Positions 33,892 to 43,401 of a DNA stretch of 64,000 bases are shown here, one piece after another (position 1 is the stretch's first letter; the number at the start of each line of letters is the position of its first letter). Source of the stretch: Candidatus Gastranaerophilales bacterium (GTDB lineage Bacteria > Cyanobacteriota > Vampirovibrionia > Gastranaerophilales > Gastranaerophilaceae); NCBI GenBank assembly GCA_944322755.1, contig CALUPY010000001.1, positions 62,001-126,000 on the forward strand, in the 5' to 3' direction. The translations under genes were made by a program, and so were the position numbers. The notes under the pieces are model-generated. The model had not been told where the DNA came from. It ran no database searches and saw nothing but the letters and a program-made list of their open reading frames with translations.

Positions 33892-34716
33892 TTGGAAAAA
33901 TACGTAGAACAGACGTTATATTCAGACGTACCACCAACAAAACTTAGAAATAGGGATGAAAAATTTAGAGAGGCACATACAGGTCCGTTCTGGATTTGGC
34001 TTGCAGACAGATTTTTCTATGGGATGCTTGAAAATCGTTTTTATTCAATGCAGGTTAAAAACAAAGAAAATTTTGATAAGCGTAATCCCAAATATGCTTC
34101 TATTATTTATGCACCGCACTGTAACTGGTGGGATGGCATTGTCGGGTATAATCTGTGCCGCAGAGTGTTTCATACGACTATACGTATGATGATTGAAGAA
34201 TTGAACAGATTTCCTATTCTTGCCAAAGCAGGGGCTTTTGCTGTTAATAAAAAATCTCCTCAGGCATCTATGAAAGCTCTGCAATATGCTGTAGACCAGC
34301 TTTGCAACAAAGATATTTCTCTCTGGATTTTCCCGGAGGGAATAATCAGACCTCCGATGTTTAGACCGATTGAATTTCAAACAGGAATGGCTTATATTGC
34401 TAAAAATGTTGTAAAAAAAGCCGGGGGAATAAATCTTATTCCCGTTTCTGTAAACTACGTGTTTTTAAGAGAGGACAGACCTGAAGTTCTTGTTAAAGTA
34501 GGAGAACCATATACTTTAACTGACCCTAAGGTGGATAGAAAAGAATTGACGCATATTCTCGAAACAAACTTTGAGGCACTGTGTGATGAACATTTGCAAA
34601 GTATCAGGCATGGCTGTGTTGAGGGCAATGAATACGTATTCAGACAGAAACTCAAATGGTACAGAAAACTTGAAAAACGCCTTAAACGTGTTAAAGTTAC
34701 GAATTCCGGTGTTTAG
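33892..34716 (+). CDS. Lysophospholipid / glycerol-3-phosphate acyltransferase-like (PlsC family)
   Basis: The 274-residue enzyme has the acyltransferase HX4D motif in 'YAPHCNWWDG' (His76, Asp81) and 'LWIFPEGII' (residues 145-152), the FPEG block that binds the phosphate of the acceptor, with 'NKKSPQASMKALQYAV' between them. It probably transfers an acyl chain to a lysophospholipid or to a related lipid or pigment. The N-terminus has no long transmembrane helix. The best start is a TTG at 33892 with AAGGAGAG about 13 bases upstream; an ATT just before it is less likely. It is convergent with hpt, whose end overlaps its last four bases. Confidence 0.88.
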   Translation: MEKYVEQTLYSDVPPTKLRNRDEKFREAHTGPFWIWLADRFFYGMLENRFYSMQVKNKENFDKRNPKYASIIYAPHCNWWDGIVGYNLCRRVFHTTIRMMIEELNRFPILAKAGAFAVNKKSPQASMKALQYAVDQLCNKDISLWIFPEGIIRPPMFRPIEFQTGMAYIAKNVVKKAGGINLIPVSVNYVFLREDRPEVLVKVGEPYTLTDPKVDRKELTHILETNFEALCDEHLQSIRHGCVEGNEYVFRQKLKWYRKLEKRLKRVKVTNSGV

Positions 34717-35249
34717 TCGGGGAAATATCCTATATATGGCAGATTTCTGAAATAGCCTTCGTAGTCTAGTCCATATCCGACAACAAATTTGTCATCAATT
34801 TCAAATCCGTAATAGTCCGGCTGAATGTCTGTTATTCTGGCTATTTTTTTGTTTAAAAATGTAATAATACCAAGGTGTTTCGGTGAGTGGGTTCTATGCA
34901 GCATATCGCATAAAAATTTCAGTGTGCATCCCGTGTCAATAATATCTTCAACTATAATGACATTTTTTCCTTCAAGGTTTGGCAGTGTTAAATCAAGTGC
35001 TTTTACATTGCCGGAGGATTTTTGTTCGTTACCGTAGCTCGAAACTTTTATAAACTCTAACTGTACAGGCATTTTTAGATATTTTATTAGGTCACAGCAG
35101 AAAATACTGGAACCTTTTAGCACACATATAACGGTCAAATCTTCATCAGTTCCGAAATCTTTGTTTATTTCTTCTGCGAGTTCTTTTGTTCTGTTAAGAA
35201 CTTGTTCTTTACTGAATAAAATTTTTAAATCTTTTACATCTTTTTTCAT
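34713..35249 (-). CDS. hpt: Hypoxanthine phosphoribosyltransferase
   Basis: Hpt converts hypoxanthine or guanine plus PRPP to IMP or GMP. The 178-residue protein has 'LTVICVLKGSSIFCCDLIKYL' at the N-terminus, 'FIKVSSYG', the PRPP-binding motif 'VIIVEDIIDTGCTLKFL' near residue 98, and 'PDYYGFEIDDKFVVGYGLDYEGYFRNLPYIG' at the C-terminus, all diagnostic. It is the last gene of the SNF2-ldpA-tilS-hpt operon, only three bases after tilS; the tilS-hpt order is common in bacteria. Purine nucleoside phosphorylase at 17293 supplies its substrate. Confidence 0.97.
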   Translation of the reverse strand: MKKDVKDLKILFSKEQVLNRTKELAEEINKDFGTDEDLTVICVLKGSSIFCCDLIKYLKMPVQLEFIKVSSYGNEQKSSGNVKALDLTLPNLEGKNVIIVEDIIDTGCTLKFLCDMLHRTHSPKHLGIITFLNKKIARITDIQPDYYGFEIDDKFVVGYGLDYEGYFRNLPYIGYFPD

Positions 35250-35252
35250 AAA

Positions 35253-36584
35253 CTATCTTTCTTTCATTAACACGAAATACAGAGGAGCTTTTTCAGCACG
35301 AAGTTTTTCGCTCAATCCGGCTTTCGGTATCCATAGCACTTCTTTTTCATTGCATAATAACACAATTTCGTCACGTTTGTATTTTTCTATATTTTTGTTT
35401 ATAAAATATTTTTTGAGTTTCATGCTGCCTTTCATTCCGAAAGGATTAATAATATCTCCGTCTCGGCGGGTTCTTAGAATGAGAGGGAATGTCAAATTCA
35501 CAAAGGCATAATTTTCTGTTTCATTCGGAAATTCTTCCGGCATGTTGTCGATTTTTTTTATTTCAAATATTTTATTTTTGAATAAATAACTGCCTTCGCC
35601 ATTAATAACTACTTCATCAAAAATCTTTTCTTTTTTTTCTATGAAAGTAAAATATTTCTCTCCAGAAAATAACCAGAGATTGCTGGTTATAGATAGTGTA
35701 TTTCCCGCTTTTGTACGGGTATTTTCTGTTATAAAAGAAATAACATCGTTTATCTTTTTTGAATCATATTCAAGATTTTTTTCTATAAATATTTCATGAA
35801 TAAATTTTTTTTGGACATCTAAAGATTGTTCAAGAAATTTTTTTGTATTGATTTTATTTTCATCTGATATTTCTTTACTGATTTTATCAAGATATTCTTT
35901 AATTATATTTTGTTCTGAAGCCGCAATTTCTGACAGCCGCATAACTGCATTATCTATATCAGGGTTTATTTGTTTCAAGTCTTTTATTACTTTGTGGCGC
36001 AGAAAATTCCTTTTGTATTTTGTATTCAAGTTGCTGGAATCGTTGTTTGGATTGAGCTTGTGTGTATTGCAATATTCTTCCACATCTTGTCTTGACCATA
36101 ATAGCAGCGGCCGATAAATTTTATATCCAAAGATTTCAGAATATTCAGTTATTCCGCATAATCCTTTGACGCCTGTACCGTGGGCAATTCTGAATATCAC
36201 TGTTTCTGTGTTGTCTGATTTGTTATGTGCAAGAAAGACACCTGCTGCTTCAAATTTTTCACAGCATTTTTTGAAAAATTTCTGTCTTGCTTCTCGTGCT
36301 GCAGTTTCTGATTTTTTTACATCTTCAGAAAGTCGTTCTGAATAAAAAATTATACCACGTTGTTTACAGAAATATTTACAGTTTTCTTCCTCTTTCTCCG
36401 ACTCATCTCCGCGCCAGTTGTGGTTTAAGTGTACTGCTATAACTTCAAAATTTTGTTCTATAGACAGTTTGAACAAAATCTCAAGCAGGCACATTGAATC
36501 ATAACCTCCGGAAAAACCTACCAGAAAACGCTTACCGGAGTTAAATATTTGGTATTTTTCTAAATAAGAAATTATTCTTTGCAT
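35253..36584 (-). CDS. tilS: tRNA(Ile)-lysidine synthetase
   Basis: TilS converts the wobble C of tRNA-Ile(CAU) to lysidine using ATP and lysine, which is essential for reading AUA. The 443-residue enzyme has the PP-loop 'VGFSGGYDSMCLLEIL' near residue 25, 'VHLNHNWRGDESEKEE', 'YSERLSEDVKKSETAAREARQKFF', 'AHNKSDNTETVIFRIAHGTGVKGLCGI' and 'RPLLLWSRQDVEEYC', as in the family. The C-terminal domain ends with 'LWIPKAGLSEKLRAE'. Its start lies 13 bases inside the end of the ldpA-like gene, so the two are coupled, and hpt follows after three bases. Confidence 0.96.
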   Translation of the reverse strand: MQRIISYLEKYQIFNSGKRFLVGFSGGYDSMCLLEILFKLSIEQNFEVIAVHLNHNWRGDESEKEEENCKYFCKQRGIIFYSERLSEDVKKSETAAREARQKFFKKCCEKFEAAGVFLAHNKSDNTETVIFRIAHGTGVKGLCGITEYSEIFGYKIYRPLLLWSRQDVEEYCNTHKLNPNNDSSNLNTKYKRNFLRHKVIKDLKQINPDIDNAVMRLSEIAASEQNIIKEYLDKISKEISDENKINTKKFLEQSLDVQKKFIHEIFIEKNLEYDSKKINDVISFITENTRTKAGNTLSITSNLWLFSGEKYFTFIEKKEKIFDEVVINGEGSYLFKNKIFEIKKIDNMPEEFPNETENYAFVNLTFPLILRTRRDGDIINPFGMKGSMKLKKYFINKNIEKYKRDEIVLLCNEKEVLWIPKAGLSEKLRAEKAPLYFVLMKER

Positions 36585-37489
36585 TTTTCAACCAGCTTCT
36601 TTGCGCATATAACAGCTTCATCGGAATCTTTGCCCTTAATAATTTCTCTGGCATAAGAGCCGACAGCTATCCCATTATATTTTATGTTGCACATTTTTGC
36701 CAGTTCTGCAGTTTTTTCATTTGTACCGCCTGAGATAATTACATACGTTCTGTATTCTTCAACAATATGCGCCATAGAAACAGCCTGCAGAGTTGATTTA
36801 TAGGTGTTTTCTCCGCCTGACATTGGAACACCGTCCGCCTGAATAATGAAATCAGAATTTCCAAGCCATTTTTTTATTTTACCGATGATTTTTCTTATTT
36901 TTTCATTGCTGTAATATTTTCTGTCAAGGCAAAAACTCAAAGGTGTTTTAGCTTTTTTTATAAGATATTTAAGTCTGTCATAAGGCGGTTTTTTTGAAGC
37001 AAGATGAACTTCTATACAGTCTATATCGTATTTTTCTGCCAGCTTTAGCGCTTCATCAAAGTCACTTTCTTTTTCAAAAAATGAAATTGCTTTGCACTTG
37101 CAGCGTTTGCAGCCAATACACTTTTCCTTTTGCACAAACGGGTATCCGTCATCAAGAAGAATAATTGCATCCTGCGGACACACATTTACACAGGCAGAAC
37201 ATCTGGTGCATTTTTCATTTATAATTTCTGCTTTATTAATATGCGCATCTCCGGATACTCCTATACTCAGACATAAAAGAAAATCATCTTTGTTTTTTCC
37301 GGCTTTTTCTATCCCTTTGTAAACAGCGTTTATTGCTTCTTCTGATGCATTTATATCGAACATATCACATCCGGCTTTTGCATAAACTGCAACATTTGAT
37401 ATTATACTTTCTTCACTTTGATTGCCGAGACCGAGTACAAGCTTAAAAATTTTTCTTTCATCTAAAATTTTAAACAGATTTTTTTTCAT
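36572..37489 (-). CDS. LdpA-like double [4Fe-4S] cluster protein
   Basis: The 305-residue protein has an N-terminal barrel-like start ('FKLVLGLGNQSEESIISNVAVYAKAGCDMFDI'). It then has two ferredoxin motifs: Cys94, 97, 100 and 104 in 'CTRCSACVNVCP', and Cys124, 127, 130 and 132 in 'CIGCKRCKC'. A C-terminal half follows with 'QADGVPMSGG' and 'YVIISGGTNEKTAELAKMC'. The layout and the C-terminal phrases resemble cyanobacterial LdpA, an iron-sulfur protein that reports redox state to the circadian clock. There the substrate and enzymatic role are not known either. This homologue occurs without any clock gene nearby and is cotranscribed with tilS and the SNF2 helicase. The LdpA link is my recognition, not a search. 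Confidence 0.7.
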   Translation of the reverse strand: MKKNLFKILDERKIFKLVLGLGNQSEESIISNVAVYAKAGCDMFDINASEEAINAVYKGIEKAGKNKDDFLLCLSIGVSGDAHINKAEIINEKCTRCSACVNVCPQDAIILLDDGYPFVQKEKCIGCKRCKCKAISFFEKESDFDEALKLAEKYDIDCIEVHLASKKPPYDRLKYLIKKAKTPLSFCLDRKYYSNEKIRKIIGKIKKWLGNSDFIIQADGVPMSGGENTYKSTLQAVSMAHIVEEYRTYVIISGGTNEKTAELAKMCNIKYNGIAVGSYAREIIKGKDSDEAVICAKKLVEKCKE

Positions 37490-37493
37490 ATTG

Positions 37494-40400
37494 CTAATCC
37501 AAAGAGAATATGTCTTTCAAATCTTCGTAAGTCAAAGATTTGCCGATATTTCTATCAACAGAAATTACCGCATCCACAAGATCTCTTTTTCTTGATTTAA
37601 GTTTTTGAATTTTTTCTTCAACAGTACCTTTTGTAATCATTCTATATACGAAAACTTTTTTCGTCTGCCCGATACGATAAGCTCTGTCAGTTGCCTGGTC
37701 TTCAACAGCAGGATTCCACCACGGGTCGTAGTGAATTACATAGTCTGCGCCTGTCAGGTTCAATCCGGTACCGCCGGCTTTTAGGCTAATAAGGAATATA
37801 GGAATAGTCGGATTGCTGTTAAAGTTTTCAACAGCTTCCTGTCTGTTTTTCGTTTTGCCTGTAAGGTATTCGTGTTTAATACCTTCTTTTTCGAGCCAAA
37901 CTTTGATAATATCAAGCATATCTACAAACTGACTGAATAAAAGTACTCTGTGACCTTCAGCAATAATTTCTTTTAGCATCTCTTTAAGCTGTTCAAATTT
38001 GCCTGATTCATTTATTCCCTTAATGTTTTCTTTGTCATACAATCTCGGATGGCAGCATATCTGGCGCAGTCTGAGAAGTGCGGAGAATATAGACATACGG
38101 CTCTTTTCGATACCATGTTCTTCAATGCTCTTGAACAATTCTTCTTTCGTGGAATCAAGAACTTCCATATAAAAATCTTTTTGTTCCGGGGTAAGTTCGC
38201 AGTATGCAACGTTTTCAATCTTATCCGGAAGATCTTTTGCAACATCTCTTTTCATACGTCTTAGTATGAAGGGATAAATTTGAGATTTTAAGCGCTTTTC
38301 AACAGTTTTATCTTCACGTTCTGTAATCGGGTTAACATATCTGTAATTAAATTCCGATTTGTCAAATAAAAATCCCGGCATAAGAAAATCAAATATTGAC
38401 CACAATTCCTCGAGCTTGTTTTCAATTGGAGTACCTGAAAGTGCGAGTTTGTGTTTGCATCTTAATTCTTTTACAGCCTGGGCTGTCTGAGAGTCTGCAT
38501 TTTTTATGTTCTGGGATTCGTCCAGAATTACGTATCTGAACTCGTGCTTTTTGAGCTCTTTAATATCGCGTCTTACGAGTGCATAGCTTGTGATAACAAT
38601 GTCATATTTCGGAATTTCTTTGAAAAGTTCTTTTCTGTCTGTGCCTGAAAGTTTCAGGCAGCTAAGACCAGGTGCGAATTTTTCAATTTCATTTTCCCAG
38701 TTAAATACAACTGATGTAGGGCAGACAACAAGAGAAGTTTCTTTTTTGTTTTTTTCCTTTGCTTTTTGTAACAAAGCAAGTGCCTGAAGTGTTTTTCCAA
38801 GCCCCATATCATCAGCAAGAATGCCGTTCAGTCCGTATTGATACAAGAACCACAGCCAGCCGAAACCTCTTGTCTGGTATTCTCTGAGTTCTGCATTAAT
38901 ACCCCGGGGTAATGCCGGTACATCCATTGTTGAGAATGTAGAAATTTGTTTCCAGAATTTCGAAAATTTACGGCTCATCTTGATTGTCATTCCGAGGTTT
39001 TCCATCTCTGAAAGCAAACCGGCTCTATACGTTTTTACAATGTATTTATTTTCTTCATTTCTGTACACGTCGAAAGTGTTGAATGCTTTTAGTAAAGAAT
39101 ATACGGCATCTGTCGGGACTTCAGCAAAACCCAGATTTTTGATTCTTAAATATTTGCTGCCGTCTGTGGTCAACGAATATACTTCATCAAACGGAAGAAT
39201 TTCTTCTCCTACACGTCCGTATAATTCAATTTCAAAGCTGTCTGTTGTGTTAATAGCAAAATCAATATCCGCACACAATTCGAATTTGTCTTTTGTTAAT
39301 TTAAAGAAAGACATATCATCTTTTTCTTCAAACAACCATCCGTCTCCTGCCTGCTGGATATAATAGTTGTAAAAATCAATTGCATTTTCTTTTTCCAGTG
39401 CAAGGTTATTGGTCTGCATTGGTGCGAATTTGCAGGCAAGAAGCATATTGTATGCAGCTTCTTCGTGCTGGGGATTTCTTTTCACCCAGTACAATAAATC
39501 TTCCTGCGGCTTTTTAATTGTAACGTATGGTGTTTTTTCAATATGTTTTGTATAAGGAACTCTTGTTCCGTCATAATCAAATTCCAATGAGGCCTTTAAT
39601 GAACCGTCATAGTCAAGTCCGAGGGATACAACGTTAATCGGCGGTTTTTGTTCAAGAAATAGTTTTTCAATTGATTCTGCCACTTCAACATGCATTGCCT
39701 GCTGGAGTTTAGGCAGTTCTTCATATAAGAATTTTGCACCGTCTGAGTCACGTACATCCGTAAAACTTGCTTTTATAAGATTTTGAGGTAAAGCTGAAAC
39801 CTGAGTAGTGGTAGGGAAAATGACATTTTTATACCGTCCCCATTTTAGTTGCCTTGAAAAATATCTTATTTCCTCAAACGGATATGAATCACTTCCGTCA
39901 GGCCTATCCCAGGTCAAAGAAAGCAAAACATTTCCTACCATTGAAAAATTTACGGAAAGTGTAAGTGACCATTCTTTGTCATCAAATCTTAGTCTGTCTT
40001 TTGTTTTTCCGTCTATAACTTCTTCCGCCTTAGACAAAAGCTGGAAAAATCCGTCAAATTTATTTATCGGAACATCATACCAGCCTGCTTTTTTGTCCAG
40101 CCTTGAACGCTGTAAAAGCAGCTGAAAGATTGCGACTTCTACTTTCTGCTCTGCATTGAGTTCAAAATTCGGGTCGTTTTTTTGCACTTCAATCAGTGCT
40201 CTTAAAATTGCTTCCAAATCTCTTATGACTTTTCCTGTATTTCTGTCCATAACAAGAATGGAGAAAAAGTTTTGTCGGCGTTTGGGATTAAAATGGAAAA
40301 TATAATTCCCCTGTGGATTTTCTACCTCAGGTACAAATTCGTCAGGATATTCAACTTTGATTTTGTGTGTTTTTTCCAGATATTTGTCGTAAACTTTATC

Positions 40401-40688
40401 TTCTATTACTTTTAATCCTACAGCGATGGCATGTTTGCACCATTCTTCTTTCAGTGGGCAGCTGCAATCAGCTTTTACTCCATCGCGCGTGAAAGTCAGA
40501 CTAGTCTCATAAGCGTCTTTAAAGTTGCCTTTAACTTTGGCGTCTACTCCGGCAAGTCTTGTTTCATAAGAAAGAACAATACCTTTCTGATGGCTTTCAT
40601 AACCTCTGCGCCAGCTTCCGGGTGTCGCTCTGTCCTTAATGTACTTATAATTAAATTTGCAAGCGTTAATTTCTTTTTGTTTTTTCAT
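37494..40688 (-). CDS. SNF2-family helicase-like ATPase with SWIM zinc finger
   Basis: The 1064-residue protein begins at the ATG at 40688. The longer frame to 40781 would add a hydrophobic, unlikely leader. An N-terminal SWIM-type finger is visible at 'DCSCPLKEEWCKHAIAVGLKV' (CxC...CxH). A middle SNF2-associated region follows, then the two RecA-like halves: 'GILADDMGLGKTLQALALL' (Walker A), 'VILDESQNIKNA' (DEAH-equivalent), 'ALSGTPIENKLEELWSIFDFL', and motifs V-VI 'ISLKAGGTGLNLTGADYVIHYDPWWNPAVEDQATDRAYRIGQ'-like in two parts. It translocates on double-stranded DNA, probably in transcription or repair. It is the first gene of an operon with the ldpA-like gene (four bases apart), tilS and hpt. 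Confidence 0.93.
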   Translation of the reverse strand: MKKQKEINACKFNYKYIKDRATPGSWRRGYESHQKGIVLSYETRLAGVDAKVKGNFKDAYETSLTFTRDGVKADCSCPLKEEWCKHAIAVGLKVIEDKVYDKYLEKTHKIKVEYPDEFVPEVENPQGNYIFHFNPKRRQNFFSILVMDRNTGKVIRDLEAILRALIEVQKNDPNFELNAEQKVEVAIFQLLLQRSRLDKKAGWYDVPINKFDGFFQLLSKAEEVIDGKTKDRLRFDDKEWSLTLSVNFSMVGNVLLSLTWDRPDGSDSYPFEEIRYFSRQLKWGRYKNVIFPTTTQVSALPQNLIKASFTDVRDSDGAKFLYEELPKLQQAMHVEVAESIEKLFLEQKPPINVVSLGLDYDGSLKASLEFDYDGTRVPYTKHIEKTPYVTIKKPQEDLLYWVKRNPQHEEAAYNMLLACKFAPMQTNNLALEKENAIDFYNYYIQQAGDGWLFEEKDDMSFFKLTKDKFELCADIDFAINTTDSFEIELYGRVGEEILPFDEVYSLTTDGSKYLRIKNLGFAEVPTDAVYSLLKAFNTFDVYRNEENKYIVKTYRAGLLSEMENLGMTIKMSRKFSKFWKQISTFSTMDVPALPRGINAELREYQTRGFGWLWFLYQYGLNGILADDMGLGKTLQALALLQKAKEKNKKETSLVVCPTSVVFNWENEIEKFAPGLSCLKLSGTDRKELFKEIPKYDIVITSYALVRRDIKELKKHEFRYVILDESQNIKNADSQTAQAVKELRCKHKLALSGTPIENKLEELWSIFDFLMPGFLFDKSEFNYRYVNPITEREDKTVEKRLKSQIYPFILRRMKRDVAKDLPDKIENVAYCELTPEQKDFYMEVLDSTKEELFKSIEEHGIEKSRMSIFSALLRLRQICCHPRLYDKENIKGINESGKFEQLKEMLKEIIAEGHRVLLFSQFVDMLDIIKVWLEKEGIKHEYLTGKTKNRQEAVENFNSNPTIPIFLISLKAGGTGLNLTGADYVIHYDPWWNPAVEDQATDRAYRIGQTKKVFVYRMITKGTVEEKIQKLKSRKRDLVDAVISVDRNIGKSLTYEDLKDIFSLD

Positions 40689-40879
40689 AAATAACCTAAT
40701 CAGAAAAAGCTTTCTGAAAAGCAACATTTCGACTGACATAAAAAGAAATTTCTTTTTACTCAATCCCCTCACAGTAACCAAAACTATTACTTAAACAGTT
40801 ACCTTAATATAAGTATACACAAAACTAAAAAAATAACAATACTTGATTCTATCTTTATGGTTGTGCAAAAATTAAGTCT

Positions 40880-41503
40880 ATGAGTGATAATAATTTTGTA
40901 TATCTGTTATATGGAAAAATCTATATAAATCTGACAAATCTATGCACAAATGACTGTGTGTTTTGTATTCGTGCAATTAAAGATGACGTAGTCGGGGCTA
41001 ATTTGTTCCTGTCAGAAGAAAAGGTCGACATGACTGAATTAAAAAAGCAGTTGGATGAGATACACCCTGAAAATTATAAAGAAATTGTATTTTGCGGATA
41101 TGGTGAACCCATGCTCAGACTGGAAGAACTGAAAGAAACGGCAAAATATATCAGAGAAAAATATCCCAATCTGAAAATCAGGATAAACACAAACGGTCAG
41201 GCAAATCTTGTTTACAAAAGAAATGTTGTTCCTGAGCTTGTTGGTCTGATTGACAGTGTTTCTGTCAGCTTCAACGGTGAAAATGAAGAAGTGTATAATG
41301 CTATTTCTTTGCCTAAACTTCCAAATGCATATGGCGCGATGAAAGAATTTATTAAAGAGTGTGTGAAACATAATATAGAAACTACAGCCACTATTGTTAC
41401 CGGCTATAAGAACTATAATGTTAATCTTGAAAGCTGCAAGTCTCAAATTGAGGCATTAGGAGTGAATTTTAGAGAGCGTCCGTGGATAGAAAACGGGTAT
41501 TGA
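40880..41503 (+). CDS. Radical SAM protein, TatD-associated type
   Basis: The 207-residue enzyme has the cluster-binding triad Cys22, Cys26 and Cys29 in 'NLTNLCTNDCVFCIR', followed by 'EIVFCGYGEPMLRLEEL' (the GGE-like SAM contact) and 'IRINTNGQANL'. The opening 'VYLLYGKIYINLTNLC' matches the small radical SAM family that usually lies next to tatD; no tatD is present here. The reaction is unknown. The gene is isolated between a divergent operon and the 41.5 kb paralogue. Its start has no Shine-Dalgarno; a poor -10 lies nearby. Confidence 0.85.
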   Translation: MSDNNFVYLLYGKIYINLTNLCTNDCVFCIRAIKDDVVGANLFLSEEKVDMTELKKQLDEIHPENYKEIVFCGYGEPMLRLEELKETAKYIREKYPNLKIRINTNGQANLVYKRNVVPELVGLIDSVSVSFNGENEEVYNAISLPKLPNAYGAMKEFIKECVKHNIETTATIVTGYKNYNVNLESCKSQIEALGVNFRERPWIENGY

Positions 41504-41551
41504 TTCAGGCAAATTATTTTTTGTTTTGATTTTTAATTATTGTGTAAAATT

Positions 41552-42499
41552 ATGAAAATACCGTCTATCCGAAACATTAAATTTAACCTTAATTCTTGTC
41601 TGCAAAAACTGAGGATATATTCTGCAGGCAATTTTAATGATTATGAAAAACTGATTAAGAAGTCATCATTAAGCAAGGATATATTTTATCGGAAAAATTA
41701 TTCAGAATTGATTTTACATGTTCCTGTTCAGCCGGGTGATACCTTTATATATCACAAGCTTCTGAAAAATATCAATCAATTTACTAACAAGGATTATGAC
41801 TTAATGACCAAAGATGAAATCAGGGCATTTCGTGCAAATATGAGCGTCCAAACAGCACAGAATGCAGAAACAGTAGTAAATGCAGCAAAGCTTGTAAAAC
41901 AAATATTAGATGAAAAATACGGAGAAGGAAATTATGTATTTATATCAGTAGGACGTTCTTTTTCTACTCTGGCAAAGTGTCTGGAATATATGGGTAACGA
42001 AACTAGATATATCCCCTTTTCCGGTGCTTCAGGTATTACAGAAAAAAGTTCTGTTCAAAAAATACTTCATCAAGCCGGTTTTCAAAAATATTTAGATTTT
42101 TTAGACAAACAGGGTCTGTCTGCAAAAACAGTAAAGAATTCTTCAAAATATTATCTTTTTTGTGATTATGTCCAAACCGGAAACAGCCTGAGTACATTTA
42201 AAAAAATTTTGACAGATAAGTCTGTTGGACTTCAGTCTCCAAATGTATTATTTCTAAAACTCAATAAAATATTATGCAGTGTTGCAGACTGTCTTCCTGA
42301 TGAATTTCTCTTCCTTAATTCCAGACTTATGGATATGGAATGGCAGCTTGCAACGCAAAGATTCGACGTATATTCCAGCATAAAGTATTTAGAGTGTACA
42401 CGGCTTAAAGATATAGCCTCTGCAGTGAATCAACCTCTTAATGATAAAGCAAAAAATATGCAGTTTTGTATTTTAGACATTTTACATTCAAATAAATAA
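41552..42499 (+). CDS. Phosphoribosyltransferase-like protein, paralogue A
   Basis: I recognise no described family. The 315-residue protein is homologous to the one at 47188-48129. Both carry a segment of the type ILDEKYGEGNYVFISVGRS...LAKCLEYMG, then PFSG..., then 'YLFCDYVQTGNSLSTFKKIL', and end with an ILDIL/VIDCI segment. The DYVxTG/SGxSL loop resembles the PRPP-binding loop of type I phosphoribosyltransferases, with the VGRS turn as a possible pyrophosphate loop. Function is an inference. I start at ATG 41552, not the TTG at 41540. The N-terminus is polar and basic (MKIPSIRNIKFNLN) and resembles leaders of neighbouring proteins. Confidence 0.65.
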   Translation: MKIPSIRNIKFNLNSCLQKLRIYSAGNFNDYEKLIKKSSLSKDIFYRKNYSELILHVPVQPGDTFIYHKLLKNINQFTNKDYDLMTKDEIRAFRANMSVQTAQNAETVVNAAKLVKQILDEKYGEGNYVFISVGRSFSTLAKCLEYMGNETRYIPFSGASGITEKSSVQKILHQAGFQKYLDFLDKQGLSAKTVKNSSKYYLFCDYVQTGNSLSTFKKILTDKSVGLQSPNVLFLKLNKILCSVADCLPDEFLFLNSRLMDMEWQLATQRFDVYSSIKYLECTRLKDIASAVNQPLNDKAKNMQFCILDILHSNK

Positions 42500-42631: not shown

Positions 42632-43339
42632 TTATTCTGCGCTAATCATAGGTGCAACAATACTTCCCGGCTGAACAATTACAAAACCGTCTCCTTCAAA
42701 TTTCATTTGAATTGAATCACCGCTGCCTCTGCCCAGCAGCGTTTTTACGGAAATATCTGTTTTGAATCCTGTTTTTAAACCCGAAGACCATGCTACTGTT
42801 GCAGATGGATCTGTCATAACCGGGCAACCCTGAGTAACTTTGAGTGTCATCGGTTCATACATAGTGGTAATTGCAAGCATTCCGCTACCTTTAATTTCAA
42901 TATTCGTGAGTCCGCCTGCCATCATTGATGCAAGTTTCATTAATTTTATATCCCATTTCAGTGAAGGTTCAAAAGCAAGAACATTTGACCCGTTTACAAA
43001 AAGGCTGTCATTCTGCAAATTAAGTATAGAAATTTTCTTTCCTTCATCCGCTATATAAACTTTTCCTGTTCCTTGTGCTTTTACAAGATTTCCGCCTTCT
43101 CCGGTGACAAATCTTTTCATCACTGTTTTTATTCCATGCTCAAAAAGATCTTCCATCGTAAATTTAACTTCGCCTGTATATGCAATCATAGCGCCCTTTT
43201 TTATCCAGGCTAAATTGTTGGATAAATTAATTTCCATAATACGGGCTGTTTCCTGTTCGAAAAAACCTTCGTTTCTGTCTTGTTGGGAAGTAGAGTTTAC
43301 AAATTCTTCAATACTGTACCTTGTGATTCCTGTTGACAT
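42632..43339 (-). CDS. AIM24 (TIGR00266)-family protein
   Basis: The 235-residue protein belongs to the AIM24 family, which has a beta-sandwich fold of unknown biochemical role; a mitochondrial homologue affects inner-membrane organisation. Family-like segments are 'NNLAWIKKGAMIAYTGEVKF', 'GEGGNLVKAQGTGKVYIAD', 'VLAFEPSLKWDIKLM', 'IEIKGSGMLAITTMYEPMTLKV' and 'DSIQMKFEGDGFVIVQPG'. Start 43339 is chosen over the upstream ATG because CAGGAG precedes it at the right distance. It is a single-gene unit ending at a strong terminator. Confidence 0.88.
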   Translation of the reverse strand: MSTGITRYSIEEFVNSTSQQDRNEGFFEQETARIMEINLSNNLAWIKKGAMIAYTGEVKFTMEDLFEHGIKTVMKRFVTGEGGNLVKAQGTGKVYIADEGKKISILNLQNDSLFVNGSNVLAFEPSLKWDIKLMKLASMMAGGLTNIEIKGSGMLAITTMYEPMTLKVTQGCPVMTDPSATVAWSSGLKTGFKTDISVKTLLGRGSGDSIQMKFEGDGFVIVQPGSIVAPMISAE

Positions 43340-43401
43340 ATAAATCTCCTGTTTTGTATACAAATTTATTCTATCATTTTGAAAGAAAATTTGTAAATAT
43401 T

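Follow-up and report, generated by a model that had tools for sequence, protein, structure and literature searches.

LdpA (light-dependent period A) has been described solely as an input of the circadian clock. The LdpA homologue encoded in the window (the whole stretch of 64,000 nucleotides of Gastranaerophilales DNA analysed here) is predicted to be a TIM barrel carrying an inserted two-cluster ferredoxin. In the reading favoured here with moderate confidence, LdpA is a vertically inherited oxidoreductase of the TIM-barrel type, which had an older enzymatic role and became a clock input later, in Cyanobacteriia. Membership in the LdpA_C family, presence throughout the phylum, homology with Ycf23 and the invariant residues common to both proteins were computed, and the fold was predicted. 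An older, perhaps enzymatic role had been proposed in the sequence-only reading of the same DNA, and is now favoured by the near-universal presence of LdpA, the predicted barrel with its polar ring, and the homology with Ycf23.

Identification of the LdpA homologue

The ldpA homologue is the open reading frame at positions 36572-37489 on the minus strand, which starts with ATG and encodes a protein of 305 amino acids. Against Pfam, the protein matched LdpA_C (PF12617) at residues 152-285 with 44.6 bits (E 1.5e-11), above the gathering cut-off of 22.2 bits, and against NCBIfam, it matched NF045992, the model for the clock LdpA, at residues 6-285 with 87.8 bits (E 7e-25). The score for LdpA_Fe-S-bd (PF25160) was 20.2 bits, below the gathering cut-off of 27.6 bits, and generic Fer4 models passed. 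The equivalog cut-off of NF045992, 450 bits, was missed by the window protein and exceeded by a cyanobacterial LdpA (589.9 bits); by the NCBI rule, the window protein is thus no clock equivalog. A single copy of ldpA was found in the 2.19-Mb genome as a whole.

Together with the LdpA_C domain, two four-cysteine ferredoxin motifs were identified by alignment and motif scan, that of cluster I (C94-xx-C-xx-C-xxx-C), CTRCSACVNVC, at residues 94-104 (37178-37210, minus strand), and that of cluster II (C124-xx-C-xx-C-x-C), CIGCKRCKC, at residues 124-132 (37094-37120, minus strand). The two motifs did not occur together in any of 20,000 shuffles of the window protein. On the C-terminal side are QADGVPMSGG at residues 217-226 (36812-36841, minus strand) and SGGTN at residues 253-257 (36719-36733, minus strand), and the full-length alignment of LdpAs contains 27 invariant columns, located both inside and outside the ferredoxin. 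As judged from the LdpA_C and NF045992 scores, the match is far beyond chance and extends partly beyond the ferredoxin region. The sequence-only reading, which had recognised an LdpA homologue by its two [4Fe-4S] motifs, QADG.PMSGG and SGGTN and had proposed a profile search as the check, was borne out by that search. The outcome it had named as contrary, a likeness to ferredoxins only with the C-terminal domain unaligned, was not seen. The chance that an unrelated ferredoxin resembles LdpA through its Fe-S motifs alone is negligible: the sequence matches in PDB are indeed mostly ferredoxin domains, but the LdpA_C match outside the ferredoxin rules this out, and the 27 invariant columns and a tree that follows taxonomy (see below) also stand against it.

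Between its last two cysteines, the cluster II motif is two residues short of the usual CxxCxxCxxxC, and the same is true of close relatives. In the LdpAs of one non-photosynthetic family, f5 (loci L061, L062 and L063), cluster I lacks its second cysteine (Cys97 by the numbering of the window protein), indicating that this cluster is not equally retained across LdpAs; as far as the sequences tell, it may differ in family f5 or use another ligand.

Host genome and distribution of LdpA

The host belongs to Gastranaerophilales, an order of the class Vampirovibrionia (previously called Melainabacteria) that lacks photosynthesis and is sister to the oxygenic cyanobacteria. The best 80 matches listed from named genomes are close relatives, mostly titled Gastranaerophilales or metagenome bins, and the closest named relative among the matches listed is Candidatus Gastranaerophilales bacterium isolate BRZ_GG__bin60, with 88% identity. 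An ldpA of the Gastranaerophilales type was also seen in two bins made public under the titles "Clostridia" and "Brachyspira" (L104 and L133), which are therefore probably mislabelled. In the whole host genome, no match was found for KaiB or for PsaA/PsaB, and the KaiC family gave weak or partial RecA-fold matches only, none of them convincing. As far as KaiB, KaiC and PsaA/PsaB go, the absence of clock and photosynthesis genes noted earlier for the stretch in view thus extends to the whole genome.

In an even sample of 194 genomes across the phylum, LdpA_C was above the cut-off in 190, including genomes of 1.6-2 Mb. LdpA_C was missing from four genomes: two belong to the window's family, one is an assembly of 64% completeness, and the last is a 1.7-Mb member of family f28. 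The window protein, when used as the query, gave matches in 57 of 59 relatives, a few of them to the ferredoxin only. Among 14 control genomes, LdpA_C was detected in Synechococcus elongatus alone, the other 13 being negative. KaiB was matched in 93 of the 194 genomes, none from the window's family, and PsaA/B in three of 22 genomes tested, all of Cyanobacteriia; 15 of the negative genomes carry LdpA_C. These counts indicate that LdpA is near-universal in the phylum, whether or not photosynthesis and the clock are present. Since the host belongs to Gastranaerophilales, a sister of Cyanobacteria, and the family is phylum-wide, its ldpA is an inherited gene and its presence is not surprising. 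A survey of 11,264 genomes in 2017 described LdpA as a Cyanobacteria-exclusive clock input factor (PMC5520375); for the near-confinement of LdpA to the phylum, we draw on this survey and on the 13 negative control genomes. Among the papers covered by our literature search, no report of LdpA in Melainabacteria was found.

In an unrooted tree of 61 proteins, the LdpAs of Cyanobacteriia formed a single group with support of 100/100, outside of which the window protein was placed. Family f5 and other non-photosynthetic families formed a second group (100/99). A third (100/99) contained the proteins of the window's order, 29 in all, except for two that were located with relatives of the class. The sequence-only reading had named clustering as an outgroup to the cyanobacterial LdpAs as support; what the unrooted tree shows is that the latter form a group of their own apart from the window protein. 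Lateral acquisition of ldpA from photosynthetic cyanobacteria, for which common family membership and nothing further could be cited, is very improbable, and is rejected as an explanation on the basis of this tree, because the group of Cyanobacteriia excludes all the non-photosynthetic LdpAs, which split by taxonomy. The tree fits vertical descent, as far as it can be read from these sequences, and opposes transfer from photosynthetic cyanobacteria. One Gastranaerophilales genome (G152) has two LdpAs, one of the tilS-linked type described below (L084) and one of the other type (L273), in contrast to most genomes, which have one; this pair suggests duplication and replacement.

Gene organization around ldpA

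On the minus strand, the gene for a SNF2-family helicase (37494-40781; PF00176) is followed after a gap of 4 bases by ldpA, which overlaps by 13 bases (36572-36584) with tilS (35253-36584, minus strand; TIGR02432, 175.6 bits), and tilS is followed by hpt, the gene for hypoxanthine phosphoribosyltransferase (34713-35249, minus strand; TIGR01203, 193.6 bits). Beyond the SNF2 gene are located genes for a radical SAM protein of the TatD-linked type (40880-41503; TIGR04038, 195 bits), a protein of 319 residues for which neither Pfam nor NCBIfam gave a significant match (41540-42499), and a bacterial AIM24-family protein (42632-43363; mitochondrial biogenesis AIM24, PF01987). The pair of the radical SAM and 319-residue proteins is also present beside the SNF2 gene in a genome of the same genus (L081).

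When 41 loci were compared, the SNF2 gene was found beside ldpA only in the window's genus, and the gene following ldpA was tilS in six loci and ycf45 in 11. Within Gastranaerophilales, tilS is located immediately downstream of ldpA in 21 loci, mostly with an overlap, and is absent downstream in 94 other loci with sufficient flank, some of these loci being duplicates of one record that has two ids. LdpAs with the tilS link occupy one side of the Gastranaerophilales tree, together with three LdpAs without it. Based on this order-level tree and the loci, the window LdpA belongs to a divergent tilS-linked subfamily, which in most genomes is the sole kind of LdpA. Co-expression of ldpA and tilS is likely, but a shared function does not follow from it.

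The conserved neighbour of ldpA across the phylum is ycf45. Among the matches listed, the two genes are at most 4.5 kb apart in 72 of the 85 genomes from other families, and in none of the 45 from the window's family. The product of ycf45 is a SpoIIIAA-like AAA ATPase with PF25516, and an R3H domain is also present in two of three products examined. PF25516 was detected in 183 of the 194 genomes, and ycf45 follows ldpA at L061-L065, L068-L070, L072, L079 and L080; a connection between ycf45 and LdpA is possible. No metabolic or other common theme was found in the ldpA neighbourhoods, the exceptions being ycf45 and, within a single subfamily, tilS-hpt.

These gene orders bear on the proposal that LdpA is a partner of TilS or of another RNA or DNA enzyme, for instance in a redox reaction during tRNA modification. 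The persistence of the ldpA-tilS junction, overlapping or abutting, in 21 loci despite strong sequence divergence is in line with such a partnership, as is the location of ycf45, with the R3H nucleic-acid domain of its product, beside ldpA in many further lineages. However, tilS is missing downstream in the 94 other loci, TilS is not known to need a redox partner, bacterial tilS and hpt commonly form a pair by themselves, and no RNA-binding feature was seen in LdpA, so that we regard this proposal as improbable. Concerning the earlier suggestions, the overlap with tilS is real but the coupling is limited to one subfamily of Gastranaerophilales, and the SNF2 gene does lie next to ldpA but only in the window's genus. 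The tRNA link drawn from them is not supported, the wide neighbour being ycf45.

Predicted fold of LdpA

The structure of the window LdpA was modelled by AlphaFold2 using an alignment of 39 sequences, with pLDDT 94.1 and pTM 0.91. The protein is predicted to fold into a TIM barrel of the phosphate-binding type, whose eight strands are at residues 14-18, 43-47, 71-77, 158-162, 184-188, 215-219, 249-253 and 273-276; strand 3 is followed by an inserted ferredoxin with two [4Fe-4S] clusters. Strands 1-3 make up the N-terminal portion of the barrel (residues 1-83; 37241-37489, minus strand), which is defined by the model, the alignment and the homology with Ycf23 and contains the invariant residues K16, D45, S75, D81 and H83. 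The ferredoxin insert occupies about residues 84-133 (37091-37240, minus strand), between strands 3 and 4 of the model and supported by the Fer4 profiles. Strands 4-8 make up the C-terminal portion of the barrel (residues 134-305; 36575-37090, minus strand), which is supported by the LdpA_C match and the model and contains the invariant residues E160, H162, Q217, D219 and N257. QADGVPMSGG is located at the end of strand 6. SGGTN at the end of strand 7 and GSYAR after strand 8 (residues 277-281; 36647-36661, minus strand) are candidate phosphate-binding loops by analogy with the phosphate sites of TIM barrels. The model of a cyanobacterial LdpA (pLDDT 91.5, pTM 0.91) showed the identical order of strands.

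Comparison of the window model by VIA-align gave ribulose-phosphate 3-epimerase (Z 17.4, rmsd 3.0, 199 residues aligned), followed by hexulose-phosphate synthase, TrpA, IGPS and other phosphate-handling barrels. The list for the cyanobacterial model was similar, with hexulose-phosphate synthase at Z 16.0, rmsd 3.5 and 204 residues aligned. Assignment of a reaction by structural likeness was rejected, because many phosphate-handling barrels fall within about 1-2 Z and the profile controls favour none; with so many rows tied, the fold is indicated but the reaction is not. The top rank of pyruvate kinases in Foldseek was uninformative (TM below 0.5, rmsd above 10). To our knowledge, none of ribulose-phosphate 3-epimerase, hexulose-phosphate synthase, TrpA and IGPS carries a ferredoxin insert. 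The active sites of TIM barrels sit at the C-terminal ends of the strands, and the point of insertion after strand 3 would therefore place the ferredoxin on the active-site face of the barrel. This predicted architecture, a barrel plus an inserted ferredoxin, is new here for LdpA. Among the papers covered by the literature search, none was found to connect LdpA and "TIM barrel".

Homology between LdpA and Ycf23

At the level of sequence profiles, LdpA without its ferredoxin was shown to be homologous to Ycf23/DUF561 (PF04481), a relationship that is new here and implies common barrel ancestry. The LdpA profile minus the ferredoxin columns matched the Ycf23 profile in hhalign with E 5.3e-14 and a probability of 98.2% over 229 columns, whereas the control profiles of TrpA, RPE and HisA/F, built from cyanobacterial genomes, gave non-significant probabilities of 15-24%. 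The signal is mostly in the N-terminal half; the C-terminal half alone reached 75% with deeper profiles, and less than 1% with shallower ones, which is not significant. The Pfam model of DUF561 matched 26 of 39 LdpAs, the best at 3e-7, and aligned in register with the N-terminus of the window protein at 14.4 bits, below the gathering cut-off of 21.6 bits. Given the significant match between profiles, the window LdpA is thus a homologue but not a member of DUF561.

Twelve positions (K16, G20, G40, D45, S75, E160, Q217, G220, G255, T260, G273 and G277 in the LdpA numbering) are identical and at least 90% conserved in both LdpA and Ycf23. Q217, D219 and G220 of LdpA pair with Q153, E155 and G156 of Ycf23, D219 being matched by an invariant Glu. 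K16, D45, S75, E160, Q217 and D219 are located on strands 1, 2, 3, 4 and 6, mostly towards the C-terminal end of the strand. The additions specific to LdpA over Ycf23 are D81, H83, H162, N257, R281 and both clusters.

Proposed function of LdpA

From these results we infer catalysis, a ligand, a path of electrons, a secondary role in the clock and an order of events. A phosphorylated substrate or FMN would be held by the loops of strands 7 and 8 (SGGTN and GSYAR), the reaction would take place within the ring of K16, D45, S75, E160, Q217 and D219, and the inserted clusters would carry electrons into or out of this barrel site. In Cyanobacteriia, the redox-dependent state of LdpA would later have been recruited by the Kai clock as an input, and in a clockless host the older role alone would remain. 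An ancestral enzyme with clock input added later is favoured because of the TIM barrel, the homology with Ycf23 and the common invariant residues at the strand ends. Structure and profile matches single out no specific reaction, and a common fold proves no function. Further points that weigh against an enzyme are the moderate alignment of the C-terminal half with Ycf23, the uneven retention of cluster I, the four genomes with no LdpA_C match, and neighbourhoods devoid of a metabolic theme.

The main rival to an enzyme is that LdpA was always a non-catalytic redox sensor, in which the clusters sense and a degenerate barrel is a scaffold for binding regulatory partners; in Gastranaerophilales, the redox state of fermentation would be sensed and signalled to other partners. 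LdpA of S. elongatus has been described as a redox sensor that alters the abundance of CikA and co-purifies with KaiA and CikA (PMC13421787; PMC6378743), and homologues of RpaA, RpaB and NblS are reported in Melainabacteria (PMC3787301; PMC4040986), in the former report without SasA or photosystems (PMC3787301), both of which agree with a sensor. Against it, the polar residues at the strand ends are invariant throughout the phylum and common to the cluster-free Ycf23, and would be needless in a scaffold. As a sensor alone would not need the polar ring, an enzyme is favoured over a pure sensor, which we consider rather unlikely. On the side of the enzyme, a wider and more tentative proposal is that LdpA and Ycf23 may be paralogous enzymes nearly confined to the phylum (Ycf23 also occurring in plastids) and derived from one ancestral barrel. 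LdpA would have gained the ferredoxin and would perform a novel ferredoxin-linked metabolic step predating the split of photosynthetic and non-photosynthetic lineages, its clock role being a later exaptation.

How LdpA controls the abundance of CikA or acts on the clock is listed as unknown in a recent review (PMC13421787), and the proposal of an enzyme addresses this gap. If LdpA is a barrel enzyme kept in clockless relatives, its effects on the clock may stem from the reaction instead of sensing alone, which is directly testable. LdpA also bears on the ancestral gene set of cyanobacteria before photosynthesis and the clock, and the predicted barrel provides an initial clue to the structure of Ycf23, a plastid protein that is conserved but functionally uncharacterized.

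Comparison with known systems

The likeness to LdpA of S. elongatus PCC 7942 (PF12617/PF25160, NF045992) consists of the full-length alignment, both [4Fe-4S] motifs and the predicted fold, and the motifs Q-[AT]-D-G-x-P-M-S-G and GGTN are present in the window protein and in cyanobacterial LdpAs; the cyanobacterial LdpAs aligned and folded were those of other Cyanobacteriia, not of S. elongatus itself. The window protein differs from the clock LdpA in that it is shorter, lacks a long insert before strand 8 and has a shortened cluster II, and its host differs from the clock system in having no KaiB, convincing KaiC or photosystem I. With phosphate-binding TIM barrels such as RPE, hexulose-phosphate synthase, TrpA and IGPS, LdpA has in common the predicted fold and the glycine-rich loops after strands 7 and 8. 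No profile match of LdpA to TrpA, RPE or HisA/F was significant, and thus no reaction is transferable from these enzymes. Ycf23 of plastids and cyanobacteria has no ferredoxin insert, and contains Gly, Ser and Asn where LdpA has H162, N257 and R281. Ycf23 is nevertheless similar to LdpA in its homologous barrel and in the common invariant K, D, S, E, Q and glycine positions, and is also phylum-wide, being detected in 182 of the 194 genomes and present in the host genome.
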